Assembly (NCBI GenBank): GCA_017434885.1
Contig: JAFSGE010000045.1
Location: forward strand, 1-64,000
Direction of reading: 5' to 3'
Length of the DNA stretch: 64,000 nucleotides
DNA from: Lachnospiraceae bacterium
Lineage (GTDB): Bacteria > Bacillota > Clostridia > Lachnospirales > Lachnospiraceae
Shown: piece after piece, positions 26,674-44,136 of the stretch
How positions within the stretch are numbered: position 1 is the first letter of the stretch
Layout: each line of letters starts with the position of its first letter
Made by a program: the position numbers and the translations under genes
The notes under the pieces: generated by a model
Databases searched by the model: none
The model's input: the letters and a program-made list of their open reading frames with translations, nothing else
Told to the model about the DNA's origin: nothing

Positions 26674-29538
26674 ATGGACGAAAAAATAAAACCTGACTAT
26701 ATGGAAATATGTGTGAAAGTAGCAAAAATCTTTTTTAGCATTGCGGCGGGATTGGCACTTTCATTTTTGGTAATTGCAAGCATGATTTTCCCGGATGAAC
26801 GTGATACGGTGAGTTCGGAATGTCGAGTGTTTGAGAACCGATGGGAACAACTTCTGCCGGACGGAGAAAAAACTCCGATAGAAGTACCGGGGAAAATTGC
26901 GGCAGAATGGGGAGAGGTGGTAACGCTTGTAACAACGCTCCCTGATGGAATCAGAAATGGTCAGAATTTGTGCTTCCGTACTATTTGGCAGGATGTTGAT
27001 ATTTTTGTTGACGGCGAGCATAGAATTCATTACAATACAGAAAGTTCCAGACCCTTTGGACTAAACAGCGCCATGCGGTACATATTTCTGGAAATTGGTG
27101 AGCAGGATGCCGGTAAGGAAGTGGTATATCAGTTTTCCAGTATGTCTAAATATGCCGGTGACATGAGAGAAATTTACATCGGTGACAGAACCAGTATCTG
27201 GATGCAGCTTTTGCACGAATCCGGAATGAAAGCGATTATATCGTTTTTCCTGTTAATCTTAAGTCTGTTTTGCATTATAACATGCATTATTTTGCGTTTT
27301 GTATACAAGAAAAACCTGTCTCTGGTTTATCTGGCGTGGACATTGTTTTTCTGTGCACTTTGGATGGTTTCGGAGACGCCGTTCAGGCAACTGTTATTTA
27401 AAAATGTTTCAGTGTTGACCAATGCGACGTACTGGAGCCTGATGCTGATTCCGTTTCCGCTTATTCTGTATATCAATGATATTCAGCAGAAGCGGTATCA
27501 GAAAATATATATGGTATCTTTTGCCTATTCATCTTTGATGCTTGTAATAGGAACTTTTTTGCAGGTATTTGATATTGTGCAATTTGTGGAACAGGTAAAA
27601 TTTATCCATATCGGAACCGGGTATGCCATGATATCACTGATTGTGACAATTACTATTGATATGATAAAGAAGCGTGCCGGTGATTACCTTGCGGTAGGAA
27701 TCGGTGTTTACGGTATGCTTGTTACGGCAGTGATTGAAATTGTTCTTTACTGGACGGATGCAATTCTTTCCCTTGGCGCCATTTTGGGAATGGGACTTTT
27801 GTTCCTGCTGATTATGGCAATTGTCAAGACCGGACAGGATTTGTTCCGCTCGGAAAGAAAGCAGCAACAGGCGATTATGGCAAAGGAAGCGCAGTCGAAG
27901 TTTCTTGCAAATATGTCTCATGAAATTCGTACTCCTATCAATGCGGTTATTGGTATGAATGAGATGATTCTGCGTGAGAATGAAAATAAAGATATTCAGG
28001 AGTATGCAGAAAATATCGGCCGTGCAAGTAAGCTGCTGCTTGATTTGGTAAATGAAGTACTGGATTTTTCAAAAATCGAATCCGGTCAGCTGGAACTGAT
28101 AGAAGATGTTTATGACCTGTCATCAGTGATTAAGGATGAACTTCTGCTTTTGAAGACCAGAATCGGAGATAAGCCTATAGCTGTTAAAGTCAATATTGAC
28201 CACAAACTGCCCACACGTTATATGGGAGATGAACTGAGGCTGAAACAGATATTGACCAATTTGTTGTCAAATGCAGCAAAATATACGAAAGAGGGAACGA
28301 TTTCTGTCAGCGTATTTTTTCAGTGGATTAATGCAGAGAAAATTAATCTTTGTTTTTCAATAGCAGATACCGGTATGGGGATCAAAGAGGAAGATATAAT
28401 ATCTCTGTTTGATGGATTTAAACGTCTTGAACTGAGTAAGAACCGTAATATTGAAGGGACAGGACTTGGGCTGAATATTACAAAACAACTTGTGGAACTG
28501 ATGCAGGGAAGTATTGCGGTAAAGAGCGAGTACGGAAAAGGCTCCACGTTTACCATCTTTATTCCGCAGAAGGTAGTAGATAAGCGTCCTATCGGTGATG
28601 GCGATGCGGTGAAGAATATCGGAAAAGAACCGGAGAAACCGGAAGGAAGTAAATTTACAGCGCCGAATGCAAAGATTCTTGCGGTGGATGATAATTCCAT
28701 GAATTTATCGGTAATCAAAGGATTGTTGAAGCGAACGCAGGTGAAGCTTGATTTGGCAAAGAGCGGAAGGGAATGTATTGAACTTTCCAAGCAGAAAACT
28801 TATGATATGATTTTGATGGATCATATGATGCCCGAACTTGACGGTGTGGAAACATTGAAACTGATACGGGAAGACGGTCACAATCCCAATTGTAATACTA
28901 TTGTAATTGCGCTGACTGCCAATGCTATCGCAGGAAGTCGGGAAATGTATTTAGAGTATGGCTTTAATGATTATTTTGCAAAGCCGATACAGGCAGGTAA
29001 ACTGGAAGAACTGCTTATGACATATCTCCCCAAAGAAGTAATCACAAAGGGAGAGGAACATGCACAGACAGAGCCTGAAAAGCAGGAAGATATAAAAACA
29101 GAAGCGATGGAAACGAAAGCCGGTGAGGTAAAGCCGGAAAAGGAAAAAACGGAAGAAACAAAAAAAGCAGAAAGCGGGGATGACAGAATGCAGCAATCAA
29201 TGGATGAATTATTATATGTAGATCATGAAGTGGGACTTTCCTATTGCATGGATTCTGAAGAATTTTATCAGGAAGTGAAGGAAGCGTTTGTAGAGCAATG
29301 CGAAGAATATCTGCCGGAGCTTGATAAGTGCTTTGCTGATAAGGATTGGAAGCAGTATGGGGTAATTACCCATGCACTTAAAAATAATGCGTTGAATATC
29401 GGCGCAACAAATTTCTCAAAAGTATCACTTGAGCATGAAACTGCGGGAAAAGAAGGAAATGCAGCCTTTATAGAAGCAGAATATTCCGGTTACATGGCAG
29501 CGTTGAAAGCGTTGATGGAAAAGGCAAAGGACAATTAG
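26674..29538 (+). CDS. Hybrid sensor histidine kinase with receiver and Hpt domains (7TM-type sensor)
   Basis: The 954-residue protein is a self-contained phosphorelay. A first membrane segment (about 18-38) precedes an extracellular beta-rich domain (about 45-175), then about seven membrane segments (185-395), like 7TMR-DISM sensors. HisKA carries His416 in NMSHEIRTPINA. The ATPase domain has NLLSNAAKYT and GTGLGLNIT. The receiver has Asp716 in MDHMMPELDG. After a Glu/Lys-rich linker, the Hpt domain has His900 in THALKNNALNIG. The ligand is unknown; the extracellular fold could bind a sugar or peptide. It is separated from the che operon by a strong terminator. Confidence 0.92.
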   Translation: MDEKIKPDYMEICVKVAKIFFSIAAGLALSFLVIASMIFPDERDTVSSECRVFENRWEQLLPDGEKTPIEVPGKIAAEWGEVVTLVTTLPDGIRNGQNLCFRTIWQDVDIFVDGEHRIHYNTESSRPFGLNSAMRYIFLEIGEQDAGKEVVYQFSSMSKYAGDMREIYIGDRTSIWMQLLHESGMKAIISFFLLILSLFCIITCIILRFVYKKNLSLVYLAWTLFFCALWMVSETPFRQLLFKNVSVLTNATYWSLMLIPFPLILYINDIQQKRYQKIYMVSFAYSSLMLVIGTFLQVFDIVQFVEQVKFIHIGTGYAMISLIVTITIDMIKKRAGDYLAVGIGVYGMLVTAVIEIVLYWTDAILSLGAILGMGLLFLLIMAIVKTGQDLFRSERKQQQAIMAKEAQSKFLANMSHEIRTPINAVIGMNEMILRENENKDIQEYAENIGRASKLLLDLVNEVLDFSKIESGQLELIEDVYDLSSVIKDELLLLKTRIGDKPIAVKVNIDHKLPTRYMGDELRLKQILTNLLSNAAKYTKEGTISVSVFFQWINAEKINLCFSIADTGMGIKEEDIISLFDGFKRLELSKNRNIEGTGLGLNITKQLVELMQGSIAVKSEYGKGSTFTIFIPQKVVDKRPIGDGDAVKNIGKEPEKPEGSKFTAPNAKILAVDDNSMNLSVIKGLLKRTQVKLDLAKSGRECIELSKQKTYDMILMDHMMPELDGVETLKLIREDGHNPNCNTIVIALTANAIAGSREMYLEYGFNDYFAKPIQAGKLEELLMTYLPKEVITKGEEHAQTEPEKQEDIKTEAMETKAGEVKPEKEKTEETKKAESGDDRMQQSMDELLYVDHEVGLSYCMDSEEFYQEVKEAFVEQCEEYLPELDKCFADKDWKQYGVITHALKNNALNIGATNFSKVSLEHETAGKEGNAAFIEAEYSGYMAALKALMEKAKDN

Positions 29539-29614: not shown

Positions 29615-29675
29615 ATTTATTGACAGAAAAAATAGTAACAAAACCCGAAAAAATTCAAAAATACTATGGAATATT

Positions 29676-29695
29676 TAGTACATTTGTACTATAAT
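29676..29695 (+). promoter_or_regulatory. Palindrome overlapping a -10 box before the che operon
   Basis: TAGTACATTTGTACTA (29676-29691) is a perfect inverted repeat. It overlaps TATAAT at 29690-29695, about 28 bp before the kinase start. No good -35 is evident, so an activator or another sigma factor may be involved. Confidence 0.45.
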
Positions 29696-29722
29696 TTTAG
29701 TATCGGTGTTTTGGAGGAAATT

Positions 29723-31189
29723 ATGGAACAAAGCAGCTTATTTCAATTTTCTATAGATAATGCATTGGAAATTATTCTTATATTTGATGCTGACGGAACG
29801 ATTATGTATGCGAATCAGTCGGCGGAGAGTCAGCTTAGCTATCAAAGCCGGTTGCAGGGTCTTTCTATTATGGATATTGTGCCGGGCGTTTTTCAGGAGC
29901 AGGCAGGGTTGCTTCGCTTCATGGGAAAATCTGACGGAACTTTCCAGAACATTATGCTTTACCGCGGAAATAAGACCTGTTTCCCGGCAAAGGGTAAGGT
30001 GATTACATATCCGGCATTGTACAACGGAAGAAAAGTATATCTTTGTACCGCAACAAACATAACAGCAGAAAACTTTTTGGAGAAAAAGGCAGAACAGGCT
30101 GACCAGGAAGTTGAAGATGCACTGAAGGTTAAAACCGAATTTGTGGCGAATGTTACCCATGAACTGCGAACTCCGGTAAACGGAATTCTCGGTAATACGC
30201 AGGAGCTTATCAGCAAAGAAACAGAGCCGAGCAAATTATTCCTCCTTCATCTGGTGGAGCGCGGATGCAGGGATATGCATGCACTGATTAACAATATTTT
30301 GGACTTCTCCAAGTTAGAGGCCGGTAAATTTGTTTTGGAACCCCGTGAATTTACTTTCCGCGAGATGATAGAATATGTGAAAGGAAATCACAGTAACCGG
30401 ATTATCGAAAAAGGACTGAATTTTTCAGTGACGATTTCACCGGAAATTCCGGAGCGGATTATCGGGGATGAACTGAGAATTGTACAGATTTTAAACAATC
30501 TGATATCCAACGCTTACAAGTTTACCAGCGTGGGTGAAATTCATGTGGAAGCGGTAAAAACCGCACAGTCAGGAAACAAGATAGAGTTATTTTTTATTGT
30601 AATTGACACCGGTATCGGAATTGCCAAGGAAAATCAGGAAAAATTATTTAAAAGTTTTTCGCAGGTAGATGCTTCCATTTCCCGAAAATATGGCGGCACC
30701 GGCTTGGGACTGAATATCTGTAAGCAGCTCGTAGAGCTGATGGGCGGCAGTATCCATGTAGAGAGTGACATCGGTAAGGGAACTATTTTCTCATTCCATA
30801 TCTGGGTGGAGCTTCCCGGTGAAACTGAGGCGGCAGCAGGAACCGATGCACAGGATGAAAAACAGCAGACGCAGATGTTTGAAGTGGGAGACAGAATTCT
30901 TCTTGAGAAGCTGCAGAAGCTGACAGGAAATGAAACTACTGAAAAAATCTGGAAATACGGCGAAGCTGAAAATAAAAAAGAAATCGAAAAGAAAATGTCA
31001 AAGCTGGTTCTCAGTGTGGAAATGGAAAACTGGGAAAAGGCAGAGATGTTTACAGAAGCAATTAAGCAATTGACGGAAGAAGCACCACGAGAAGTAAAGA
31101 GTGCAGCACTTCGTATGAAGATGGCAGTGCAAAAAAGTGATTACGAAAAGTCCATGGCAGCTTATGAAAAGTTACAGGAATTGTTGTAA
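29723..31189 (+). CDS. PAS-domain histidine kinase, first gene of the che operon
   Basis: The 488-residue soluble protein has no membrane segment. A PAS domain (about 5-110, FSIDNALEIILIFDADGTIMYAN) precedes HisKA with His146 in NVTHELRTPVNG, then the ATPase domain with NLISNAYKFT, DTGIGIA and GTGLGLNIC. It has no receiver. The last ~100 residues are an added helical domain (from VGDRILLEKLQ) also seen at the end of the 38.7-kb kinase. ATG 29723 is chosen for GGAGG 8 bases upstream. The next gene, a receiver protein, starts 18 bp later and is the natural phosphorylation partner. Confidence 0.9.
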   Translation: MEQSSLFQFSIDNALEIILIFDADGTIMYANQSAESQLSYQSRLQGLSIMDIVPGVFQEQAGLLRFMGKSDGTFQNIMLYRGNKTCFPAKGKVITYPALYNGRKVYLCTATNITAENFLEKKAEQADQEVEDALKVKTEFVANVTHELRTPVNGILGNTQELISKETEPSKLFLLHLVERGCRDMHALINNILDFSKLEAGKFVLEPREFTFREMIEYVKGNHSNRIIEKGLNFSVTISPEIPERIIGDELRIVQILNNLISNAYKFTSVGEIHVEAVKTAQSGNKIELFFIVIDTGIGIAKENQEKLFKSFSQVDASISRKYGGTGLGLNICKQLVELMGGSIHVESDIGKGTIFSFHIWVELPGETEAAAGTDAQDEKQQTQMFEVGDRILLEKLQKLTGNETTEKIWKYGEAENKKEIEKKMSKLVLSVEMENWEKAEMFTEAIKQLTEEAPREVKSAALRMKMAVQKSDYEKSMAAYEKLQELL

Positions 31190-31207: not shown

Positions 31208-32284
31208 ATGGCAACAGCGGCAGCAGCGAGAAGGGATATTCCACGTATTTTGATTGTGGATGACGTGGAAGCCAACCGGTTTATTTTAAAAGATGTAATA
31301 GCAGATATGGGATATTGCCCCATTCTTGCAGAAAACGGAATACAGGCACTTAAAATGATACAGCATATCAAACCTCAACTTATCGTTTTGGATATTGCGA
31401 TGCCTGAGATGGATGGATATGAGGTTTGTTCCAAATTAAAGGAAGACCCTTTGACTAAGGATATTCCGATTATCTTTATATCTGCGTATGATGACCCCAA
31501 TGACATTGTAAAAGGTTTTACATATGGGGGAGAAGATTATATTACCAAGCCTTTTATCCCTGAGGTGGTAAAAGCCAGAGTCGGCATGCATCTAAAATTA
31601 TATGAGGCAAATAAGGATATATTGGAAATGAACCGTCAGCTGCAGGTATCTGTTAATGAACAGTTGAAACAGATAGAAGCAGAAAGAAGAAGTGTTTTGT
31701 ATGCATTGATTCGCGTGGCAAGGGAGCATGCCTGCTATGATGATGAGCATATGGAGAAGGTTAGTTATAATTGCCGTAAACTGGCAGAAGCGATGCAGCT
31801 TTCGTCCATGTACGGACATTTGATTTCAGATAATTATGTGGATACCATTGAACTGGCAGCACCTCTTTGTGATTTGGGAAATATGGCGATTCCCACAGAT
31901 ATTCTGCAAAAACAGGGTAAGCTTGACCCGGAAGAAAAAGAGGTTATGTATACACATACCACAATAGGCGCCCAAATTTTAGAGGATGTCGGCGCTGCGG
32001 GTAATAATAATGCATTTATACAAATGGCGATTGATATTGCACATTATCACCATGAGAGCTGGGACGGAAGCGGTTACCCGGAAGGAATCAAAAATGATGA
32101 GATTCCTCTTGCGGCACAGATTGTATCGGTAGCAAGTGACTATAGTGCTTTGACTGAGGATCGTACCTATCGTAAAGCTTATTCCCAGGAGCAGGCGATA
32201 GAAATTATGGAGTTGGTGGCAGGAAAGAAGTATAATCCTGACATTTTCTGGATTATGAAAAAGATAGTCCGTCAGCTTCACTAA
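31208..32284 (+). CDS. Response regulator with a degenerate HD-GYP output domain
   Basis: The 358-residue protein has an N-terminal receiver: acidic pair DD near residue 16, phosphoacceptor Asp in VLDIAMPEMDG, and Lys in ITKPFIP. A coiled linker leads to an HD-GYP-like domain. HTTIGA, HHESWDGSGYPEG and the DRTYRKAY region are kept. The first metal-site motif, normally HDIGK, reads CDLGN, and the later DxxDAL reads SDYSAL, so key ligands are lost. It probably does not hydrolyse cyclic di-GMP but could bind it or a partner. It lies between the PAS kinase and CheR. Confidence 0.88.
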   Translation: MATAAAARRDIPRILIVDDVEANRFILKDVIADMGYCPILAENGIQALKMIQHIKPQLIVLDIAMPEMDGYEVCSKLKEDPLTKDIPIIFISAYDDPNDIVKGFTYGGEDYITKPFIPEVVKARVGMHLKLYEANKDILEMNRQLQVSVNEQLKQIEAERRSVLYALIRVAREHACYDDEHMEKVSYNCRKLAEAMQLSSMYGHLISDNYVDTIELAAPLCDLGNMAIPTDILQKQGKLDPEEKEVMYTHTTIGAQILEDVGAAGNNNAFIQMAIDIAHYHHESWDGSGYPEGIKNDEIPLAAQIVSVASDYSALTEDRTYRKAYSQEQAIEIMELVAGKKYNPDIFWIMKKIVRQLH

Positions 32285-32299
32285 CGGGACGGTAACAGA

Positions 32300-33103
32300 A
32301 TGACACAGGAAGAATTTTTGCGGATTTACCGCTTTATCAAAAGCCGGTACGGAATTGATTTGGACCATAAAAAGGAAATCGTTCAGGGGAGAATGGAAAA
32401 TTATCTTCACAGAGCGGGATTTCATGATTATAACGAGTATATGAATGCCGTGGAACGTGATGTGACGGGACGGCTTGAGAAGGAACTGGTAAATATCTTA
32501 ACTACAAATCATACCTTCTTTATGAGAGAGTTTGAGCATTTTGATTTCATGAAGCAGGAAGTACTTCCGTATCTTCGCAGAAAAGAAGAGCGTTCTAAGG
32601 ATTTGTGTATCTGGTGCGGTGCATCTTCCACCGGGCAGGAGCCGTATATGTTGGCAATGCTGCTCCACGATTTTTTCGGACTTGAGCATGAAATGTGGGA
32701 TACCAAGGTGCTTGCTACGGACATTTCCACAGAGGCGCTTAGTCAGGCGATAGCGGGAATCTATAAGCGGGAGCAGATAGAAAGTTTGCCGGATGTGTGG
32801 AAACGACGGTATTTACATGCCACAGGAGACGGAGAACATTATGAAATCGCAAAGGAAATTAAAGATCAGGTGTTGTTTAGGCAGTTTAATCTGATGGATA
32901 CCTTTCCTTTTAAGCGCAAAATGCATGTAGTGTTTCTGCGCAATGTGATGATTTACTTTGATAAACAGACGAAACAGGAAATTATGCAGAAAGTATATGA
33001 TGTGATGGAGCCGGGGGGATATTTATTTATCGGCAGAACAGAAACGATTGACAGAAGTGCAGTACCGTTTCAGTTAATACAGCCATCCATCTTTCGCAAA
33101 TAA
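32300..33103 (+). CDS. cheR: CheR chemoreceptor glutamate methyltransferase
   Basis: The 267-residue protein has the helical N-terminal CheR domain (YRFIKSRYGIDLDHKKEIV) and the SAM-binding methyltransferase domain. Visible motifs are TTNHTFFMRE, WCGASSTGQEPYMLAMLL (SAM-binding loop), ATDISTEAL and VVFLRNVMIYFD. It methylates glutamates on methyl-accepting chemotaxis proteins, probably including the MCP made from the same operon. It works against CheB, the next gene. The intergenic distance to cheB is 18 bp. Confidence 0.96.
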   Translation: MTQEEFLRIYRFIKSRYGIDLDHKKEIVQGRMENYLHRAGFHDYNEYMNAVERDVTGRLEKELVNILTTNHTFFMREFEHFDFMKQEVLPYLRRKEERSKDLCIWCGASSTGQEPYMLAMLLHDFFGLEHEMWDTKVLATDISTEALSQAIAGIYKREQIESLPDVWKRRYLHATGDGEHYEIAKEIKDQVLFRQFNLMDTFPFKRKMHVVFLRNVMIYFDKQTKQEIMQKVYDVMEPGGYLFIGRTETIDRSAVPFQLIQPSIFRK

Positions 33104-33121
33104 ATAAGAGGAGAAATGACT

Positions 33122-34150
33122 ATGCGTCAAATACGGGTATTGGTAGTGGAAGACTCGATGCTGTTTCGGGAACTTCTGGTACAGAATTTGAATGCTGACC
33201 CTGCAATTACTGTGGTGGGAACAGCAAGAGACCCCTTTGAAGCAAGAGATGCTATTTTGAAGTATAAGCCGGATGTTATGACATTGGATGTGGAGCTTCC
33301 CAAGATGGACGGTATTGAGTTCCTACGGAAGCTGATGCCGCAGTATCCGCTTCCGGTGGTGGTAATCAGTTCTTTGAGTGAAAGGGTATTTGATGCGCTC
33401 AATGCCGGAGCGGTGGACTTTGTGGCAAAACCCACAGGCGTAGGCAGGGCACAGATGGAAGCCTTCATGAAAAAGGAACTGACGGTCAAAATCAAAGTGG
33501 CATCCGTGGCAAAAGTCAGCAGATGGAAAAAGGCACCGGCTGAAATACCGGATCATCCCTTGGCAGAAAATAACAGGGATTTGGTGGTGGCAATCGGTGC
33601 ATCCACGGGGGGAACGGAAGCAATTGCTTCGGTAATAAAGGATTTTGGCTCGGATATTCCGGGTGTGGTAATTGTACAACATATGCCGCCGGGATTTACG
33701 GAAATGTATGCAAAGAGGTTAAATGACCAATGTCAGGTCTGTGTAAAGGAAGCAAAAACCGGAGATCAGGTATTGCCGGGACAGGTGCTGATAGCACCGG
33801 GTGGAGATGCTCACATGCAACTGACCAAGATAAACGGAATTTATCAGGTGGTAATCAAAAAAGGACCGAAAGTCAACGGACACTGTCCATCCGTTGATGT
33901 GTTGTTTGAATCGGTGGCAACCGTTGCAGGTAACAAAGCGGTCGGAATTATTTTAACCGGAATGGGAGGAGATGGTGCAAAGGGGCTTCTTGCCATGAGA
34001 AAAGCAGGTGCAAGAACAATCGGACAGGATGAATCCACTTGTGTCGTATACGGTATGCCAAAAGTGGCATATGATTTAGGAGCAGTGGAATATCAGGAAA
34101 AATTGCCGGATATTGCCAGAAGAACTTATTCATTAGTTGGCAAAATGTAA
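33122..34150 (+). CDS. cheB: CheB protein-glutamate methylesterase/glutaminase
   Basis: The 342-residue protein has an N-terminal receiver (phosphoacceptor in MTLDVELPKMDGIEFL, Lys in FVAKPTG) and a C-terminal methylesterase domain: catalytic Ser in IGASTGGTEAI, His in QHMPPGFT, and Asp in GMGGDGAKGL. Phosphorylated by CheA, it demethylates or deamidates chemoreceptors. ATG 33122 is used because GAGGAG (33108-33113) is too close to the ATG at 33116. All catalytic residues are present. Confidence 0.97.
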   Translation: MRQIRVLVVEDSMLFRELLVQNLNADPAITVVGTARDPFEARDAILKYKPDVMTLDVELPKMDGIEFLRKLMPQYPLPVVVISSLSERVFDALNAGAVDFVAKPTGVGRAQMEAFMKKELTVKIKVASVAKVSRWKKAPAEIPDHPLAENNRDLVVAIGASTGGTEAIASVIKDFGSDIPGVVIVQHMPPGFTEMYAKRLNDQCQVCVKEAKTGDQVLPGQVLIAPGGDAHMQLTKINGIYQVVIKKGPKVNGHCPSVDVLFESVATVAGNKAVGIILTGMGGDGAKGLLAMRKAGARTIGQDESTCVVYGMPKVAYDLGAVEYQEKLPDIARRTYSLVGKM

Positions 34151-34170: not shown

Positions 34171-34563
34171 ATGAGAATTTTATTAGCAGAAGATGATTTT
34201 GTAACAAGAAAGTTTATGTTGGGATTTTTGTCTAAATACGGTGAATGTGATGTGACCGTAGACGGAATGGAAGCGGTGGACGCTTTTATGATGGCGCTTG
34301 AGGATGACGACCCTTATGATTTGGTTTGTCTTGATATTATGATGCCGGTTATGGACGGTTATCAGGCGCTTATGGGAATCCGTAATCTGGAAAAAGAGCG
34401 TAACATTCCCAAAGAAAAGGCTGCAAAGGTTATTATGACAACAGCTTTGAATGACGAAAAGAATGTGAAAATGGCATTTGAGCTTGGCTGTACGGTTTAT
34501 TCCGGTAAACCCATTGACCAGGACAAATTTGAACAGGTACTGAAGAAATTCGGACTGGTATAG
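34171..34563 (+). CDS. CheY-like single-domain response regulator
   Basis: The 130-residue protein is a bare receiver domain. Acidic residues EDD (about 7-9), phosphoacceptor Asp in VCLDIMMPVMDGYQAL, Thr in IMTTALND and Lys in SGKPID are all in place. Placed between cheB and cheA, it is the likely diffusible output of CheA. The insertion RNLEKERNIPKEKAAKV differs from classical flagellar-motor CheY, so another target is possible. It could therefore serve a non-motor output. Confidence 0.9.
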   Translation: MRILLAEDDFVTRKFMLGFLSKYGECDVTVDGMEAVDAFMMALEDDDPYDLVCLDIMMPVMDGYQALMGIRNLEKERNIPKEKAAKVIMTTALNDEKNVKMAFELGCTVYSGKPIDQDKFEQVLKKFGLV

Positions 34564-34576
34564 AAAGGAGTAGTAA

Positions 34577-36751
34577 ATGTCAGCAGAGTTTAATACACAG
34601 GGTATGCTTGATATATACCTGTTTGAAAACGGACAGCTGCTTGAGAGGCTTCAGGAAATCGTATTGGAACAGAAGGATGACGATTGCTTTGATGATGACA
34701 GTATTAATGAAATCTTCAGAGCCATGCATACCATAAAGGGTTCCTCCGGTGTGATGATGTTCGATGAAATAACAAGAATATCCCATAAGCTGGAAGATGT
34801 ATTCTTTTATTTGAGAGAATCAAAACCCGATAATGTTCCCCATTTGGAATTGGTTGAGCATGTTCTTCAGGTAGTTGACTTTATTTCCAGTGAAATGATT
34901 AAAATTCAGGAAGGCGGGCAGCCTGACGGAGATGCAAGTGATTATGTGACTGCTCTTGATCAGTTTTTGGATAAGATTAAGAACGGCAAGGGTGAAAAGG
35001 GCAAAGAGATTAAGGAAAATGTGCACGTGGAGCCGGAGCAGTTTTATATTGCACCTATGGCTACAAGCGCAAGTCATTTTTATAAAATTTACTTAACCTT
35101 CCACCCGGATGTACAGCTTGCCAATGTACATGCTTATAAAACGGTTTATGCGTTGAAAGAAATGGCAGAGGATTTACTTCACTATCCGGAAGACATTATT
35201 TCTGACGAATCAACGGCGGAAGAGATTCTGGAGAACGGATTTAAAATTCTTTTGCAGGCACAGTGCAGTGAGCAAGATTTGCGCGGTGTTATTCAGGAAG
35301 GCTATGAACTGAAAAAAGTAGATATTTATGAATGTACTGCCAAGGAATTCCAACAGGGATTTGACAGCATCGGTTCTGAAATCAGAATTGATTTGGAATC
35401 CAGTGTGGAAGAGATAGAGTCAAAAACAGATGGCGGCGGCATGATGTTTATTGCTCCCGATGTTTCTGTGGAAGCACCTAAGGAAGCAGAGAAAAAAGCT
35501 ATTGCCCCCGGTGATTTCGTTATTGAGTCCAAGGAACCCGGTAAAGGAAAGAAGCTGGTGAAGGATAAGCCTAAGAAAATGGAAAAGGCAGCCCTTATCA
35601 GCGTGGATGTCCACAAGATGGACATGCTCATGGATTTAATCGGTGAACTTGTAATTGCAGAATCCGTGGTACTTCAGAATCAGGATTTGAAGGTACCGGG
35701 CTTAAGGCTTGATAATTTCAATAAAGCGGCAGGTCAGATGACCAAAATATCCACGGATTTGCAGAACGTGATTATGAGTATGAGAATGATGCCTCTTACC
35801 AATACGTTCCAGAAGATGAACCGTATTGTGTTTGACGTTTCCCGTAAGCTCGGTAAAGAGATTGAATTTGAGATGGTAGGCGAGCACACGGAAGTGGACA
35901 AGAACATCATTGAACATATTTCCGACCCTATGATGCATCTGGTAAGAAATTCCGTAGACCACGGTATTGAGATGCCCGATGAGCGTGCGGCAGCAGGCAA
36001 AACAGAAAAGGGTAAGGTTACCTTATCTGCCAAGACAGAGTCCGGTAAGGTTTGGATTACCGTACAGGATAACGGAAAGGGATTAAACCGTCAGAAGATT
36101 CTTGCAAAAGCGAGAAAGCAGGGATTGCTTGATCCTTACAAAATGGATAACGATTACACAGATAAAGAAGTATATCAGTTCATCACACTGCCAGGATTTT
36201 CCACCAATGAGAAGGTGACGGAATATTCCGGAAGAGGCGTAGGTATGGATGTAGTAGTATCTAATTTACAATCCATAGGCGGAAGTCTTGAAATTGAAAG
36301 TACGCCGGGTAAGGGTAGCCAGATGATTATGAAGATTCCTCTTACCCTTGCCATTATCGATGGTATCGTTATGGAAGTAGGTAAGTCTTCCTTCGTAATC
36401 GAAACCGGTGTGGTAAAAGAGTTTATCGGAATGCGCAGTGATATGATGCAGAGTGATCCGGATGGCTCGGAATTTGTAATGATCCGTGGTGAGTGTTATC
36501 CTGTGCTTCGCATCGGCGAGTGGTATCAACTGAATGACTATAAGTCAGATCTTGATAACGGAATGCTGGTATTGATAGAGGTAGAGAAGAAAATGATTTG
36601 TCTGTTTGTAGACCGTTTGGTAGGAAAACAGGAAATCGTGGTAAAACCCATTCCCGATTATATCAAGAAAGTAAAGGGACTATCAGGATGTACGCAGTTA
36701 GGTGACGGCAGTATCGCATTGATTCTCGATGCGGCCGGATTGATTGAATAA
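34577..36751 (+). CDS. cheA: CheA chemotaxis histidine kinase
   Basis: The 724-residue protein shows the five CheA domains. P1/Hpt carries His51 in AMHTIKGSSGVM. A P2-like region spans about 160-290. The P3 dimerisation helices include SVDVHKMDMLMDLIGELVIA. The P4 kinase domain has LVRNSVDHGIEMPDER, DNGKGLN and GRGVGMDVV. The P5 CheW-like domain is at the C-terminus. It phosphorylates its own His51 and passes phosphate to CheB and CheY. AAAGGAG precedes the ATG, and the gene follows the receiver gene by 13 bp. Confidence 0.97.
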   Translation: MSAEFNTQGMLDIYLFENGQLLERLQEIVLEQKDDDCFDDDSINEIFRAMHTIKGSSGVMMFDEITRISHKLEDVFFYLRESKPDNVPHLELVEHVLQVVDFISSEMIKIQEGGQPDGDASDYVTALDQFLDKIKNGKGEKGKEIKENVHVEPEQFYIAPMATSASHFYKIYLTFHPDVQLANVHAYKTVYALKEMAEDLLHYPEDIISDESTAEEILENGFKILLQAQCSEQDLRGVIQEGYELKKVDIYECTAKEFQQGFDSIGSEIRIDLESSVEEIESKTDGGGMMFIAPDVSVEAPKEAEKKAIAPGDFVIESKEPGKGKKLVKDKPKKMEKAALISVDVHKMDMLMDLIGELVIAESVVLQNQDLKVPGLRLDNFNKAAGQMTKISTDLQNVIMSMRMMPLTNTFQKMNRIVFDVSRKLGKEIEFEMVGEHTEVDKNIIEHISDPMMHLVRNSVDHGIEMPDERAAAGKTEKGKVTLSAKTESGKVWITVQDNGKGLNRQKILAKARKQGLLDPYKMDNDYTDKEVYQFITLPGFSTNEKVTEYSGRGVGMDVVVSNLQSIGGSLEIESTPGKGSQMIMKIPLTLAIIDGIVMEVGKSSFVIETGVVKEFIGMRSDMMQSDPDGSEFVMIRGECYPVLRIGEWYQLNDYKSDLDNGMLVLIEVEKKMICLFVDRLVGKQEIVVKPIPDYIKKVKGLSGCTQLGDGSIALILDAAGLIE

Positions 36752-36776
36752 ATAAGAGAAAGGGAGAAAGGTGCAT

Positions 36777-37286
36777 ATGAGTGAGTTCGAAACACAAACA
36801 CAATTAGACAAATATGTAACCTTCAAATCGGGAAACGAATATTTCGGTCTGAAAATTGAGTATGTAAACGAAATTATTGTTTATCAGGAAATTACCGAGA
36901 TTCCCGAAAGTGAAGATTACATCAAAGGACTGATTAACCTTCGAGGAAAAATCATTCCCGTAATTGACGTTAGAATCCGATTTAAGCAGGAACCGATTGA
37001 ATATAATGACAGAACCTGCATTATTGTAATTAACGTAAAAGATACCGTGGTTGGCCTGATTGTAGAGAAAATCGCAGAGGTTGTTGAGATTAAGCAGGAT
37101 GATATTCTGCCGCCTCCTTCCGCAACAATCGGACATGAAGAAAAGACACAGAACAAATATGTGTACGGTATCGGCAAAGTAGGTGAAAACGTAAAATTAC
37201 TGCTTGACCCTGACAGATTGTTAAAGGATGAGGAACTGAATCTGCTCGACCAGGCAACGGAAGAGAATGAGGAAGAAGGAGAATAA
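36777..37286 (+). CDS. cheW: CheW coupling protein
   Basis: The 169-residue protein has one CheW domain: [22 protein letters not shown], the conserved [21 protein letters not shown], and [14 protein letters not shown]. It links the MCP to CheA in the signalling array. The acidic C-terminal tail ([10 protein letters not shown]) is not part of the domain. ATG 36777 is chosen over the in-frame GTG 36771, which overlaps the Shine-Dalgarno. The MCP gene follows after 5 bp. Confidence 0.96.
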
Positions 37287-37291
37287 TCACT

Positions 37292-38650
37292 ATGAAAAAT
37301 ATGAAAATGCATACAAAACTTACAATCGGTTACATTATTTTGAGTATCCTGCTTGTGATTTCCATTTATACCGGTTATACATCAGCGGCAAATATTATGG
37401 CCCTTGATCCTTCGGAACAGGGAAGATATTTGAGTAACTATGCAACATTTACGGCAATTCTCTTTATTGTAATGTCACTTATAACAGGGGGCATTGCGAT
37501 TACATTAACTAAATTAATCCGTTCTTCTTTTGCCAAGCTTACAAAAGCAGCTGATGAGATGGCAGCCGGCAAAGTGGATGTAAAGCTTGAAAAAGACAAC
37601 AATGATGAATTTGGTATGTTGATGGATGATTTCCAAAAGGTTATTGATGGCACCCGTTATCAGGCACAGATTGCGCAGGAAGTTGCAACCGGAAATTTGA
37701 TGGTGGATGTCCGCCCCAGATCTGATGAGGATGTTATGGGTCAGGCACTTAAGACAATGGTGGTAAATAATCAGCACACACTTGGAAATATCAAGGATGC
37801 GGCTTATCAGGTAACAACCAGCTCTTCCCAGGTTGCAAGTGCAAGTGAAGCGTTGGCACAGGGGTCCACTGAGCAGGCAAGTGCTATTGAGCAGATTACA
37901 GCATCTATTGATGATATTGCTGAAAAGACCAAACAGAATGCTTCTCAGGCAAATGAAGCAGCAAATCTGGTAGGAAAAGCAATTCTCGATGTAAAGAAGG
38001 GCAATGAGGAAATGCGCGAAATGGTAGTTGCTATGCAGGATATCAATAAGGCATCCGAAAGCATCTCCAAGATTATCAAAGTGATTGATGATATTGCGTT
38101 CCAGACCAATATTCTTGCATTGAATGCGGCAGTGGAAGCAGCAAGAGCCGGCGAAGCAGGAAAAGGCTTTGCAGTAGTAGCGGAAGAAGTAAGAAACTTA
38201 GCGGCAAAGAGTGCTTCTGCAGCTGCTGAAACTGCGGAACTGATTGAAGATTCCATTCAGAAGGTGGGCGTTGGTTCCAAGATTGCAAATGATACAGCAG
38301 CAGCTTTGGAAGAAATTAACGAAGTGGTTAAGCAGAGTGAAGGCATTATCAATGAAATCGCAGAAGCATCCAATTATCAGGCAACAGCCATTACACAGAT
38401 TGATCAGGCGATTGCACAGGTATCACAGGTTGTACAGACAAACTCTGCAACCAGCCAGGAATGTGCGGCGGCAAGTATCGAATTGTCCAATCAGGCAAGC
38501 CGTATGCGTGAGATGCTTGCAGTATACAAGTTGAATAATAACTCTTACGGTTCTATGGACATGGGAGATAGCATGGGCCACCGTTACAGCAGTACATCCG
38601 ACAGAAATGAACAGATTATTTCTTTGAAGGATGGTTTTGGAAAGTATTAA
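37292..38650 (+). CDS. Methyl-accepting chemotaxis protein with minimal extracellular part
   Basis: The 452-residue receptor has two membrane segments (about 11-31 and 50-72) separated by only about 18 residues, so there is almost no extracellular sensor. A HAMP domain (about 73-125) is followed by a long signalling coiled coil. The hairpin tip reads [21 protein letters not shown] and [10 protein letters not shown], the conserved CheA/CheW-binding tip. It may sense membrane or cytoplasmic cues, or receive signals from the neighbouring kinases. It is the last gene of the eight-gene run and is followed by a terminator. Confidence 0.95.
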
Positions 38651-38663
38651 TGTAGTATAAAAT

Positions 38664-38709
38664 ATACCGGCACCAGGAGCGTTGCGGTGTCGGTATGTTT
38701 GCATTTTTT
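38664..38709 (+). terminator. Terminator after the MCP gene
   Basis: ATACCGGCACC (38664-38674) pairs with GGTGTCGGTAT (38686-38696, one G-U). A T6 run ends at 38709. It overlaps the space before the next kinase start, so it may attenuate read-through. Confidence 0.75.
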
Positions 38710-38727
38710 CGCCGGGAGGATTTTAAC

Positions 38728-41448
38728 GTGGGAAAATTCACCTACATGGGTAGTCAAAAAATAATTGAACGCTTTGTTATGGTTTTTTTCAGCGTATATG
38801 CAGCGACCATGATGATTATAACCGAGAAATACATCGGATTTGCTATTATGACAGGTTTGGTGATTTGTTGGTTGCTGAATACAAGTAAGTACAGGACTTT
38901 TGAATTCAGAGCTGTGGTTACTTCCGTTGTCATGCAGTTAAGTGTGGTTTTGTACGGAATGCAGCTTGAGAGCATATCTCCGGTGCTTTCAGTCTTTATT
39001 GTGTTTACGCTGGTGCTTGGGCTGTATGGAATGGAGACGATTATCGGACTTTCCGTGATATCGTCCGTGATTCTTTTTTGCTATCATGCGTGGGTTGTCC
39101 GCAGTATTCCGCTTGGCAATATAACGCAGGTTATGAATTTGATTTCGCAGATTGTAAACCTTCTGATTGTGCAGTATGTGGTCTATATCTGGACAAAGAG
39201 AAACAGAGAAGGCAGCGAACAGCTGATGGAGACAATTGAGGAATTGCAGGAAGTAGAGCGGACTAAGGATGATTTTGTGGCAAATGTCAGTCATGAAATC
39301 AGAACGCCCATTAATACCATATGCGGTATGAGTGACCTGATTATGAGACAGGATTTGCCTTATGAAACCAAAGAGAATGTTCTGAGTATCCAGATGGCAA
39401 GTGAAAACCTGATGGCGGTAGTCAGTGATATTCTTGATTTTTCCGAATTGCAGGCTGAGCAGATTGAACTGGAGGAGGAAGCATATCATATTACAACCAC
39501 GATAAATGATGTGGTAAATCATACACTGGCACGCAGGGGAGATAAAAAAATAGAAATTATTGTGGATTGCGACGCAAATATCCCTTCAGTACTTTTGGGA
39601 GATGAAAAGAAGCTCCGCAGAGTAATTATAAAATTGGTGGACAATGCCATTAAATTTACGGATGAAGGATTTGTGAGTATTGCAGTCAGTGCCCGTAAGG
39701 AAAGCTACGGAGTGAATTTGTCCGTTTCGGTAAAAGACAGCGGTATCGGTATATCGGAAGAAGGACTTGAAAAGGTATTTACCAGCTTTAGTCAGATAAA
39801 TACAAGCAGCAACCGTCAGGAAGGCGGTCTTGGTCTGGGCCTTGCAATCTCCAATGCACTGGTTCAGAAGATGGGCGGAGCAATTACGGTAAACAGTAAA
39901 CCCGGTAAAGGGACTACGGTACAGTTTGTTGTGCCGCAGAAGGTACTGGAAGAGATTCCTGTTGCGGTTGTTAATCAAAAAGAAAATATTAATGCGGCAG
40001 TCTATATTGATATGGAGCAGTTTGATATGGTTGCCATTCGTGACGAGTATATAAAGGCAGTTACCCACATTATGGAGCAGCTTAAGGTGGATTATCTTGC
40101 CTGCCGTAATCTGGCAGAACTGCAGAGAAGAGAGAAGAAAGAGAACTTCTCACATGTATTTATAAATATGACCGGATATCGTCAGAATCCATCCTATTTT
40201 GAAGAACTGGCGAAGAAAACAAAAGTGATAATTATTATGGATCACAAGGATGAGAAGGAGATTAAATCTCAGGAATTTATAAAGATATACAAGCCATTAT
40301 ATGTATTGAAAATTACGTCTGTATTAAACGGATTACAGGATAAAAGCAGAGAAGAATATCAAAGCGGTAATGAGAAATTTACAACCCAGGATGCTCATGT
40401 ACTCGTGGTGGATGACAACAGAATGAATCTGCGCGTAGTCAAAGAGATGCTTAAGATTTATAACATTAAGGTGACAACTGCAATCAGCGGTAAAGATGCA
40501 TTGGAGAAGATTATTTCAGAGGATTATGATTTTGTGTTCATGGATCATATGATGCCGGAAATGGACGGCGTGGAAACCTTCCACCGCATCAGAAACAATG
40601 TGGGAGCTTATTATAAGAAGGTTCCGATTGTTGCGCTGACGGCAAATGCGGTTGCCGGTGCAAGGGAAATGATGCTAAAAGAAGGCTTTAACGATTTCCT
40701 TGCAAAACCCATTGAGCGTTCTGTTTTGGAGAGAGTATTAAAGAGAAATCTTCCGCCAAACAAAATTATCTATGAAGATTATGAGGAAGAGACAGAAGCT
40801 GTTATTGAAGAAAAAGATGAATTTGTAATTGAAGGACTTGATGTGCAGCAGGGCATTGTTTACTGTAACGGAAAAGAGCAGTATATTAAGATTTTACAGG
40901 GGTATTGCGAAGACTGGAATGATGCCGGTGCTACAACGCAGGAAGCGTTTGAAAAAGAGGATTGGAAGAATTATACCATAGCCGTACACGGTTTAAAGAG
41001 TGCCATGAGAAGTATCGGTGCACTTGCTGTTTCAGAAAAAGCCAGAAAGCTGGAAATGGCAGGAAAAGAAGACAGGATAGATTATATTCTCGAACATCAC
41101 AGAGAATTAATGAAAGCATACGAAGAATTGTTTGCACAATTGAGAAAAAATGAATTGCTTTGTCCCGGTGGCAGTGTGCAGAAACAGCGAAATAAGAAAC
41201 ACAGTGATTTGCCGGAACTGGAAGAAGAAGTGTTAGACTGTAAGATTGCAGAAATGGAAGAAGCGATGTATGCGTGGAATGGAGAGCTTCTGATGGAGAT
41301 TATCGGTGAATTAAAGAAGTACCAATATGGCGATTATGTGCTGTCAGAGGTTTTAGCACCGGTAGAGCGTAAGGTGGAAATGTCCGATTATATGTCGGCG
41401 GTAGAAACTGTGAAACGTTGGAAGGACGGTTTGACCGATAAGGAGTAA
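38728..41448 (+). CDS. Membrane hybrid histidine kinase with receivers, Hpt and an extra C-terminal domain
   Basis: The 906-residue protein starts at GTG 38728 behind GGGAGGA; the upstream in-frame ATG (38695) lies inside the terminator. About six membrane segments (15-165) have no large loops. HisKA has His189 in NVSHEIRTPINT and the ATPase domain DNAIKFTDEG and GLGLGLAIS. A degenerate receiver-like region follows (about 425-540, no phosphoacceptor Asp seen), then a true receiver with Asp606 in MDHMMPEMDG and an Hpt with His754 in VHGLKSAMRSIG. The final ~80 residues resemble the C-terminus of the PAS kinase. The input signal is unknown. The next gene begins 6 bp later. Confidence 0.9.
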   Translation: MGKFTYMGSQKIIERFVMVFFSVYAATMMIITEKYIGFAIMTGLVICWLLNTSKYRTFEFRAVVTSVVMQLSVVLYGMQLESISPVLSVFIVFTLVLGLYGMETIIGLSVISSVILFCYHAWVVRSIPLGNITQVMNLISQIVNLLIVQYVVYIWTKRNREGSEQLMETIEELQEVERTKDDFVANVSHEIRTPINTICGMSDLIMRQDLPYETKENVLSIQMASENLMAVVSDILDFSELQAEQIELEEEAYHITTTINDVVNHTLARRGDKKIEIIVDCDANIPSVLLGDEKKLRRVIIKLVDNAIKFTDEGFVSIAVSARKESYGVNLSVSVKDSGIGISEEGLEKVFTSFSQINTSSNRQEGGLGLGLAISNALVQKMGGAITVNSKPGKGTTVQFVVPQKVLEEIPVAVVNQKENINAAVYIDMEQFDMVAIRDEYIKAVTHIMEQLKVDYLACRNLAELQRREKKENFSHVFINMTGYRQNPSYFEELAKKTKVIIIMDHKDEKEIKSQEFIKIYKPLYVLKITSVLNGLQDKSREEYQSGNEKFTTQDAHVLVVDDNRMNLRVVKEMLKIYNIKVTTAISGKDALEKIISEDYDFVFMDHMMPEMDGVETFHRIRNNVGAYYKKVPIVALTANAVAGAREMMLKEGFNDFLAKPIERSVLERVLKRNLPPNKIIYEDYEEETEAVIEEKDEFVIEGLDVQQGIVYCNGKEQYIKILQGYCEDWNDAGATTQEAFEKEDWKNYTIAVHGLKSAMRSIGALAVSEKARKLEMAGKEDRIDYILEHHRELMKAYEELFAQLRKNELLCPGGSVQKQRNKKHSDLPELEEEVLDCKIAEMEEAMYAWNGELLMEIIGELKKYQYGDYVLSEVLAPVERKVEMSDYMSAVETVKRWKDGLTDKE

Positions 41449-41454
41449 TGGCGG

Positions 41455-44136
41455 ATGTGGAAAAAATTATTTCAAAAAATATATGGAGAGGACTGTGAAC
41501 TGCGGGAGAGAACTTTCCGCACGATTGTCATAGTCGGATGTATTGCAACTATTTTGGCAATTACTGAAATTTTTATCGTGATGCAATTACATCCTTTGCT
41601 TGTATCAGCTTTGTTGTGCCTGCTTTTGGGAATGGGCGTAAGCATGTTTGTCATTTTTAAATATCGTAAATATAATTTGGCGTCATCGCTTTTGGGAATC
41701 GGAATTGTAGGGATTGTGATGCCTATTCTGTTTTGCTTAAGCGGAGCGGTCGACAGTGGGTCGTCAGTATGGCTTGCATTGGGAATGATATACCTTTTTC
41801 TTATGTTTAGCGGGAAAAAGCTTGCATGCTATTTGATTTTTAGTATTGTGATGTATGGTGCTACATACGGGATTACTTACTTTTATCCAGGTCTTGTCGT
41901 TCCTATGAGGTCCAGAGCAGCAGCTTATGTGGATTCTCTGTTTTCCGTGATTGTGGTGGGAATTATCAGTGGCTTGATTATTAAGGCAAATATGATTGTG
42001 TTTGAAAAGGAACATAAGCTGAATGTTGAGCAGAATGAAGAACTGGAAAGAAGCAGAGATGCAAAAAATGTGTTCTTTGCCAACATGAGTCATGAAATCA
42101 GAACACCGATTAATGCTATTATTGGTCTGAACGAAATGATTATGCGACTGAATCAGGAAGGGGAGACTCTGGAATATGCGAAGGATATCGAGGTTGCCAG
42201 TAAAATGCTTTTAAGTCAGGTGAATGATATTCTTGATTTGTCTCAGCTTGAAATGCAGAAAATGAAACTGGTGCCGATAGAATATCAGACAAAGCGGATG
42301 TTCAGGGATTTGTCTGATATGGTGCGTATGCAGGCAGAAAAGAAGGGGCTTGCTTTGCATATGGATATAGACAGAAATCTTCCCTCGGTTCTTTACGGTG
42401 ATGAAAAACGGTTAAAACAGGTTTTATTGAATCTGCTTGATAATGCGGTGAAATATACTGCGGAAGGTTCTGTATCACTGTCGGTACAGTTTGATAAGGT
42501 GAGTGAAAATGAAATTAGTCTGAAGGCGGCTGTAGTAGATACCGGGATTGGTATCCGAAAAGAAGATATCGGACATATTTATGAATCCTTTAACCGTCTG
42601 GACGAAAAGAAAAATAAGCGAATTATCGGAAGCGGACTTGGGCTTTCCATTACGAAACAGTTGGTGGATTTGCTTGGCGGAGAAATTACCATTGACAGTA
42701 TTTATACAAAAGGGAGTATATTTACTGTGATTGTTAAGCAAAAGATAATCAATGAAACACCGATAGGTAATGTGATGTTTGCACAGGAAGAACGTGCGAG
42801 TGGTGAAACTTATAAACCTTTATTTGAAGCACCGGAAGCGAGAATTCTGATTGTAGATGATAACAGAATGAATTCCATGGTGGCAAGTAAACTGTTATCC
42901 TATACCAAGATGCAGGTCGACGTGGCAGGAAGCGGAACAGAATGCCTTGAGATGACAAAGAAGAAATACTATCACGTGATTCTGATGGATTCCATGATGC
43001 CGGATATGGACGGGGAAGAAACCATGAAGGCATTGCAGATACAGGAAAACGGTTTGTGCAGGGAGTCAGCAGTCATTGTAATTACGGGAAATACTAAGGC
43101 CGGTGCCAGAGGAGAATATCTGGAACAGGGATTTGACGGTTACGTGGAAAAACCGATTCAGGGAAGATTATTGGAAGAAGAAATAATGCAATTCCTGCCC
43201 GGGGATATTATTGAAGTGAGCGAAACAAAGGATAAAGCTGATAGTGATATGGGGCAGATGCAAAGGCTGACCGGTAAAAAGCGTAAAAAGATTTATGTGA
43301 CTTCTGATTGTGCATGTGATATTCCGGCAGATTTACTGGAAGAGTACGATATCAGAATGATGTATCTGTATATTAAAACACCGCATGGTCGGTTTGCCGA
43401 TACCAGGGAAATTGATATAGACAGTTTGTCCCGGTATGTCGAAGAAGAAAGCAGTACAGCTTATGCAGACAGCGTGACGGTGGAAGAATATGAGCAGTTC
43501 TTTGCGGAAACACTGGCGCAGGCAGATAGTGTGATTCATATCTCACTGGCCTCCCGTTCAGGAAAGAGTTACAGTATTGCACAGACGGCAGCCAAGAACT
43601 TTGACCATGTGCATATTATAGACTCCGGACAGATTTCCGGTGGACAGGGTCTGATTACACTTTGTGCGGCAAAGATGGCAAAAGAGGGTGCAAACGTAAA
43701 AGAAATCTGTGAGAAGCTGGAGAGAAAATTGGAGCATATTAATACAAGAGTAATAATGCCGGGTGCAGATATCTTCTACCAGAACGGAAGGGCAAGGAAG
43801 ATAACGGCTAAAGCGTGTCAGATATTCAGCTTACATCCTTATATGATGATGCATCAAAAGAAAGCAATTTTAGTAGCACTCTTCGGAGGAAGCTTAGAGC
43901 ATGCATGGAGGCAGGCAATTGCATGGACATTTAGGCGAAAACGTAAAATTGATTCGGGAATAGTTTTTATTTCTCATGTGGGATGCAGTGTGAAACAGCA
44001 GGAGTGGATACGCAGGGAAATTTTGAAACGCGTGCCGTTTGAGCAGGTGATTATACAGAAAACATCTTTCACAAATGCATGTAATGTGGGGCAAAAAGCA
44101 ATCGGAATTGCTTATTTTACAAAAGAAAAACAATAA
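41455..44136 (+). CDS. Hybrid histidine kinase fused to a C-terminal DegV domain
   Basis: The 893-residue protein has about six membrane segments (20-180), HisKA with His213 in NMSHEIRTPINA, an ATPase domain (NLLDNAVKYTAEG, GSGLGLSIT), and a receiver with Asp512 in LMDSMMPDMDG and Lys567 in VEKPIQ. Residues about 611-889 form a DegV fold: KKIYVTSDCACDIPADLLEE, HISLASRSGKSYSIAQTAA, HIIDSGQISGGQGLI. DegV/FakB proteins bind fatty acids. The usual TSxPS lipid-head motif is replaced (YADSVTVEEY), so ligand binding may differ. No Hpt is present. It is tightly coupled to the previous kinase gene (6 bp) and ends at a strong terminator, so the fusion is not an assembly join at an operon end. Confidence 0.9.
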   Translation: MWKKLFQKIYGEDCELRERTFRTIVIVGCIATILAITEIFIVMQLHPLLVSALLCLLLGMGVSMFVIFKYRKYNLASSLLGIGIVGIVMPILFCLSGAVDSGSSVWLALGMIYLFLMFSGKKLACYLIFSIVMYGATYGITYFYPGLVVPMRSRAAAYVDSLFSVIVVGIISGLIIKANMIVFEKEHKLNVEQNEELERSRDAKNVFFANMSHEIRTPINAIIGLNEMIMRLNQEGETLEYAKDIEVASKMLLSQVNDILDLSQLEMQKMKLVPIEYQTKRMFRDLSDMVRMQAEKKGLALHMDIDRNLPSVLYGDEKRLKQVLLNLLDNAVKYTAEGSVSLSVQFDKVSENEISLKAAVVDTGIGIRKEDIGHIYESFNRLDEKKNKRIIGSGLGLSITKQLVDLLGGEITIDSIYTKGSIFTVIVKQKIINETPIGNVMFAQEERASGETYKPLFEAPEARILIVDDNRMNSMVASKLLSYTKMQVDVAGSGTECLEMTKKKYYHVILMDSMMPDMDGEETMKALQIQENGLCRESAVIVITGNTKAGARGEYLEQGFDGYVEKPIQGRLLEEEIMQFLPGDIIEVSETKDKADSDMGQMQRLTGKKRKKIYVTSDCACDIPADLLEEYDIRMMYLYIKTPHGRFADTREIDIDSLSRYVEEESSTAYADSVTVEEYEQFFAETLAQADSVIHISLASRSGKSYSIAQTAAKNFDHVHIIDSGQISGGQGLITLCAAKMAKEGANVKEICEKLERKLEHINTRVIMPGADIFYQNGRARKITAKACQIFSLHPYMMMHQKKAILVALFGGSLEHAWRQAIAWTFRRKRKIDSGIVFISHVGCSVKQQEWIRREILKRVPFEQVIIQKTSFTNACNVGQKAIGIAYFTKEKQ

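Follow-up and report, generated by a model that had tools for sequence, protein, structure and literature searches.

FakB-type proteins of the DegV family (PF02645, TIGR00762) are known as fatty-acid carriers for phospholipid synthesis. In FakB1, according to the passages of PMC8892158, the carboxylate is contacted by a hydrogen-bond network of Thr62, Ser95, Ser171 and His270; catalysis requires Arg173, and Arg205 takes part in FakA binding and in membrane contact. Staphylococcus aureus offers a precedent for a two-component system under lipid control: SaeRS signaling is inhibited by fatty acids, and fatty acid kinase influences it by lowering their free pool (the FakAB-SaeRS passages of PMC5539427). 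One sequence-similarity study of DegV trims the domains and mentions the existence of multidomain DegV proteins (PMC12288450). The passages that name DegV in four other papers, with hemolysin III neighbors (PMC3146951), as a gene in a deleted region (PMC12688256), in a table row (PMC9912610) and in a gene list (PMC3533761), describe no DegV-kinase fusion. A fusion of a DegV/FakB domain to a kinase is not described in the open-access literature that we searched; domain-architecture databases may well show the bare architecture.

Here we analyze such a fusion, which lies in a 64,000-nucleotide stretch of DNA (the window) from a Lachnospiraceae bacterium. Like FakB, the protein has a full-length DegV domain that scores above curated cut-offs. 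Unlike FakB, this domain is joined to a kinase and a receiver, the equivalents of Lys203, Arg205 and His270 are lost in nearly all of its kinase-linked relatives, and the Arg173 position is variable. With hybrid kinases of the ArcB, BarA, TorS and EvgS type the protein shares the HisKA-HATPase_c-receiver core and the use of an HPt domain, here in a partner protein; the differences are the C-terminal DegV domain and the usual placement of the HPt on a separate partner kinase. Among the NCBIfam kinase families it comes closest to BarA, TorS and ArcB, with scores far under the cut-off of each. The resemblance to FakAB-SaeRS would be that of a two-component system answering to fatty acids, but that link runs through the free fatty-acid pool (PMC5539427, same passages), whereas here the FakB-type domain is inside the kinase.

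A kinase-receiver-DegV fusion that recurs in Clostridia

The fusion gene occupies positions 41455..44136 of the + strand and encodes 893 aa in a single ORF without interruption, exactly the frame that a first-pass annotation of this DNA had proposed. The N-terminal membrane region (41455..42060, +) has about 5-6 spans between residues 18 and 185 by a crude hydropathy scan, which is compatible with the six segments of that annotation but does not prove their number; as for an N-terminal sensor domain, Pfam returned sub-threshold matches only. There follow a HisKA domain (42064..42252, +; residues 204-266, Pfam 1.7e-16), a HATPase_c domain (42397..42741, +; residues 315-429, 3.3e-24), a receiver (42844..43182, +; residues 464-576, Response_reg 2.7e-21) and a full-length DegV domain of the FakB type (43288..44121, +; residues 612-889, 3.8e-33). 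All four matches are over the curated Pfam cut-offs, so the kinase, ATPase, receiver and complete DegV fold read from the letters alone are borne out by the domain search, and the lack of a DegV profile match that would have counted against them did not materialize. The DegV match scores 115.4 bits against a cut-off of 27 and covers positions 1-279 of the 280 in PF02645, and TIGR00762, the DegV family of NCBIfam, scores 126.4 bits against 99.7. Profile comparison also matched FakB and DegV proteins of solved structure. Among the 11 DegV matches in this genome, the one in the fusion has the lowest score; it lies in a frame of 895 aa, whereas the others are all in short frames of 283-308 aa.

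The fusion recurs widely. Queried with the DegV part, 10 of the 37 genomes in the genus, the window's own included, gave relatives at E<=1e-25, and in all 10 a close relative is in an open frame of 891-905 aa. For the family we searched 397 genomes with a 12-row DegV alignment (E<=1e-60). At least 118 places in at least 86 genomes match, and at least 67 genomes have DegV kin in a frame of 700 aa or more. In 391 genomes of the class (E<=1e-70), at least 11 matched, at least 9 of them with a frame of 700 aa or more; at least 3 with such a frame are outside the family, all of one genus, and one of these (L179) shows the usual gene module when annotated. These family and class counts are lower bounds, at most six candidates per genome having been scored, and the frames of 700 aa or more were annotated domain by domain for part of them. 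Two loci outside the family (L181, L182) have free-standing DegV matches, and the stretch read shows no kinase. Our own domain scan found 67 frames with the order HisKA, HATPase, receiver, DegV in the best 80 of 371 confirmed candidate loci, a selection that leans to close kin; these records come from Lachnospiraceae, Oscillospiraceae, other Clostridia and one MAG labeled Spirochaetaceae, and the carriers include Schaedlerella arabinosiphila (DSM 106076 in L102), Anaerotruncus colihominis, Oscillibacter and Butyrivibrio. The kinase-DegV fusion is therefore real and recurrent, as the first-pass annotation had asked of other Lachnospiraceae genomes, and the missed stop or frameshift that it had named as a refutation is contradicted by the same fusion in so many of them.

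In the MAG labeled Spirochaetaceae (L111:2696-5716), where transfer and binning error are both possible, the multi-span N terminus of the fusion is replaced by two spans and a dCache match that falls under its cut-off; a change of the outer sensor thus leaves the DegV end in place. We also considered carriage by phages or plasmids and rejected it: in the phage collection 7 records, none annotated, have DegV matches at 19-26%, and of the 656 plasmid records that match a receiver-DegV query, none covers 80% of it.

To compare residues we aligned 76 full-length fusions (the window protein, 9 others and 66 from named records), selected as having all four domains matched in one frame of more than 850 aa, so that degenerate members such as L154 fall outside. 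This set includes 6 pairs that are >95% identical as well as the same-contig duplicates L047/L035 and L081/L036, and L035 and L047 are both counted in the window's clade of 15. It excludes L070 (a 696-aa frame), L094 (DegV in two frames), and L091, L098 and L120 (a frame without HisKA, cut near a contig end). The window protein has all the residues expected of a hybrid kinase, namely the HisKA His, the N and G boxes, and the receiver Asp and Lys. These are almost invariant in the alignment: His213 of HisKA, Asn330, Asp362, Gly364, Gly394 and Gly396 of HATPase_c, and Asp468, Asp469, Asp512 and Lys566 of the receiver are kept in 76/76, and Thr544 in 75/76. The linker between the receiver and DegV is nearly constant, at 28-34 residues in the 76 rows. 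The exception to receiver conservation is the excluded kinase-DegV protein L154:4790-7378, in which the phospho-accepting Asp is a gap and DegV is retained; neither Response_reg nor HisKA scored a match there, and the aligned kinase residues remain. A DegV kept beside a damaged receiver suggests that receiver phosphorylation is not always needed, and disfavors a strict coupling of receiver and DegV.

A two-gene module with an HPt-bearing partner kinase

The fusion gene belongs to a conserved module of two kinase genes, to which the first-pass annotation made no reference. The second gene, 6 nt upstream in the window, encodes a 917-aa hybrid kinase with the order HisKA, HATPase_c, receiver, HPt (38695..41448, +), whose HPt domain (40891..41106, +; His765) is above the Pfam Hpt cut-off. 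An HPt-bearing kinase, or part of one, is directly 5' of the fusion in all 74 cases with room for it, the remaining 2 of the 76 being at contig ends. Of these 74 partners, 68 have the full domain order, 3 are partial, and 3 have the full order with a larger overlap; the partners in L080, L092 and L106 overlap the fusion by >60 nt. The gap between partner and fusion has a median of 6 nt over the 71 measured, and 25 pairs overlap. The HPt His is present in 74 of 76 full-length partners aligned, and so the fixed neighbor supplies, in sequence, the phosphotransfer domain on which a multistep phosphorelay depends. By the same scan, 7 of the 9 ordinary DegV loci of this genome were covered, and none of the 7 has another signaling domain within 1.5 kb.

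In a few rearranged loci the HPt is found elsewhere. In five variants (L151, L155, L156, L158, L180) it is in the DegV protein itself and the neighboring kinase-receiver has none, and in L153 and L157 it is in another neighboring protein; some of these assignments come from our own scan alone, and the HPt of L156 scores under the Pfam Hpt cut-off. Given that a further HPt-bearing kinase frame adjoins the pair in L151, one HPt per locus is a tendency and not a strict rule. The variants also demonstrate that DegV may precede an HPt without a kinase, or come first in a kinase protein. The latter is seen in the 1578-aa protein L180:3808-8544, where DegV is followed by HisKA, HATPase, receiver and HPt; in L152, which overlaps the L180 locus, a dCache domain was found.

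In the window the module lies at the end of a chemosensory cluster, a setting that the first-pass annotation likewise passed over. Directly before it, between positions 26674 and 38650 and all on the + strand, are a second hybrid kinase with a receiver (26674..29538; an Hpt match is below cut-off), a HisKA-HATPase_c kinase (29666..31189; a PAS match is below cut-off), a receiver-HD domain protein (31208..32284; Pfam HD_5), presumably of the HD-GYP type, CheR (32300..33103), CheB (33116..34150), a single-domain CheY-like receiver (34171..34563; named from sequence and position), CheA (34577..36751), CheW (36771..37286) and a methyl-accepting chemotaxis-type protein with HAMP and MCPsignal matches in Pfam (37292..38650). 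The same gene order is found in L040. The run from CheR to the MCP is like that of known Che clusters, but here kinase pairs are added, and of 85 loci, whose stretches differ in length, only 12 show CheA, CheW, CheB or CheR. In these 85 loci (74 fused, 11 split), the gene 5' of the partner encodes a receiver in 32, a receiver-HD protein in 13 (and in 1 more in another order), an MCP in 12, a double receiver in 3, a kinase in 1 and the DegV of a tandem module in 1; in 14 nothing was recognized within 600 nt, and 8 are at a contig end. The usual locus contains two kinases (one if split), one DegV and an HPt, and frequently a receiver or receiver-HD regulator alongside. On the 3' side, positions 44252-45436 of the window encode a protein of 394 aa in which stretches rich in His and Cys recur; it has no match in Pfam, and a relative of it is likewise 3' of the fusion in L023.

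Split loci and the origin of the fusion

Split loci have DegV as a gene of its own, following an HPt-bearing kinase of the same kind. This genome itself has one, on contig 52 (L028). In all, 11 of 13 free-standing DegV genes have such a partner, or part of it, directly 5'. The other two, L059 and L107, were removed from the split group (n=11) for the residue counts when their placement was already known. In L059:6176-8855 a kinase-receiver and DegV directly follow an HPt kinase and occupy two different frames that overlap, for which a natural split and a sequencing error are both possible; the extra free-standing DegV of L107 groups with ordinary DegV in the tree. A tandem double module, with the order HPt kinase, DegV, HPt kinase, DegV, is seen in L095:2541-10285.

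We built trees of both the DegV domains and the kinases, each by a quick search with SH-aLRT support only. With ordinary DegV as the outgroup (108 rows, four near-copies left out, long branches flagged), the DegV domains linked to kinases fall into a single clade (SH-aLRT 100). Inside it the fused domains and the rearranged variants form one clade (99), and beside this is the group of 11 free-standing DegV (87, below the tool's star). In the tree of 67 kinases from 34 chosen sources, the DegV-bearing kinases form one clade (99), and the partner kinases fall into two sister groups, one from fused loci (99) and one from split loci (91), which join at 98. These trees fit a single recruitment of DegV as the neighbor of an HPt kinase and one main event of fusion with a second kinase, a direction that depends on the outgroup.

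Ligand site and possible role of the DegV domain

To ask what the DegV domain may bind, we compared it with FakB1 at the positions named above and at Lys203, added here as the neighbor of Arg205. At Thr62, Ser95, Ser171, Arg173, Lys203, Arg205 and His270 the window protein has Ala, Gly, Asn, Arg, Leu, Gly and Asn. The docking Arg205 is thus a Gly, and the carboxylate network of Thr62, Ser95 and His270 is Ala, Gly and Asn. Around these positions the motifs fare as the first-pass annotation had described, with one exception: the TSxPS region is altered (Thr62-Ser-Gln-Pro-Ala of FakB1 to Ala-Asp-Ser-Val-Thr) and the DSxxxSxGxG region is present (DSGQISGGQG), but the SSxLSG-like region, said to remain, is kept only in part (LASRSGKSY), with Gly replacing Ser95. 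Across the family, Arg at the Arg205 position is found in 13/15 ordinary DegV, 1/76 fused and 0/11 split proteins, and Lys at the Lys203 position in 13/15, 0/76 and 0/11. The His270 position is His in 13/15 ordinary DegV and Asn in 68/76 fused and 11/11 split. The Arg173 position is Arg in 15/15 ordinary, 46/76 fused and 6/11 split, and Lys in 11 further fused and 5 further split. Ser or Thr at both the Thr62 and Ser95 positions is found in 14/15 ordinary, 45/76 fused and 11/11 split proteins, and in 0/15 of the window's clade. The Asp-Ser pair at FakB1 117/118 is retained (Asp in 72/76 and Ser in 75/76 fused).

Because the docking Lys and Arg and the His at position 270 are lost in nearly all of them, the kinase-linked DegV domains are unlikely to serve FakA. 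An ordinary fatty-acid kinase is likely present, since the genome encodes one Dak2-domain protein, in a 560-aa frame. A lipid is the putative ligand, least certainly in the window's own clade, where none of the 15 members has both carboxylate hydroxyls, which raises the possibility of a ligand other than a fatty acid. The first-pass annotation had suggested that a receiver-linked DegV would couple phosphorylation to lipid binding, or lipid sensing to signaling. The coupling half of this idea is now strongly supported by the recurrence, the fixed partner, the split and rearranged versions and the kept catalytic residues, and the lipid-binding half has been weakened by the missing FakA- and membrane-docking Lys and Arg, the missing His270 and the altered hydroxyl positions of the window's clade.

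Based on these data, we propose that a FakB-derived DegV domain, retired from fatty-acid delivery, acts in a two-kinase phosphorelay, probably as a lipid sensor, a proposal to which we give about an even chance. We infer the route of the phosphate, the ligand and the direction of control as follows. The two membrane kinases, the partner (38695-41448) and the fusion (41455-44136), would autophosphorylate and load their own receivers. Phosphate from both would converge on the HPt of the partner and pass to a nearby response regulator, either CheY-like or receiver-HD. Having given up the transfer of fatty acid to FakA, the DegV domain would be a tethered regulator, probably a lipid sensor, and its ligand state would act on the neighboring receiver or kinase and thereby on the flow of phosphate. 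More tentatively, and with the odds rather against it, a FakB-type carrier may have been recruited once as the operon partner of an HPt kinase and later fused to a second kinase, with acyl-lipid occupancy and receiver phosphorylation controlling each other; in gut Clostridia the output that they steer would be CheY-like, c-di-GMP (receiver-HD) or chemosensory. The fusion in many gut bacteria suggests a so far undescribed tie between lipid state and cell signaling. If the proposal holds, many gut Clostridia would have a candidate intracellular lipid sensor, the phosphorelay clade would add a signaling role to a fold known for carriers, and the function of a DegV group outside FakAB would become directly testable with one purified protein pair.

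Output domains usually follow a receiver. The position of DegV behind the receiver, on its near-constant linker, therefore favors an alternative in which DegV is the effector, receiver phosphorylation controls lipid capture or release at the membrane, and the relay acts on lipid traffic. The split loci, where the DegV gene comes right after the kinase, and the Ser/Thr pairs retained in 45/76 fused and 11/11 split proteins speak for it too, but with the FakA-delivery residues gone in nearly all, a captured lipid would have no known taker. Other candidate outputs (receiver, receiver-HD, MCP) adjoin many loci, and DegV can precede an HPt without a kinase or start a kinase protein. Given the lost delivery residues and the other outputs at hand, we prefer a sensor to an effector, and regard the latter as possible but improbable. 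It is unlikely, too, that DegV is a docking or dimerization scaffold for the kinase pair, with a ligand other than a fatty acid or none. The degraded carboxylate network of the window's clade and the DegV of L154, which outlasted the receiver Asp, would suit a scaffold, but the domain is kept at full length and well over the DegV cut-offs, and a scaffold need not keep the Asp-Ser pair that nearly all fusions retain.

Two further accounts fare worse than the sensor that we propose. An ordinary FakB, merely tethered and still feeding FakA, could draw on the FakA-sized Dak2-domain protein and the other DegV proteins of the genome, and the window protein does keep Arg at the Arg173 position. We consider it very improbable, the Lys203 and Arg205 equivalents being lost in nearly all fusions and Arg173 being Arg in only 46/76, with the Dak2 gene and the fusion on different contigs. 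That an assembly error, a missed stop or a frameshift joined two neighboring genes might be argued from the existence of split loci, and from L059, where the DegV frame differs from that of the preceding kinase-receiver, but we give it practically no credence. The 11 split DegV genes follow an HPt-bearing kinase, or part of one, and not a kinase-receiver without HPt. A frameshift or mis-assembly as the origin of the fusion is ruled out by recurrence, with the continuous frame in 10/37 genus genomes and in many other species and full-length identity falling to 34% among the 76 aligned fusions.
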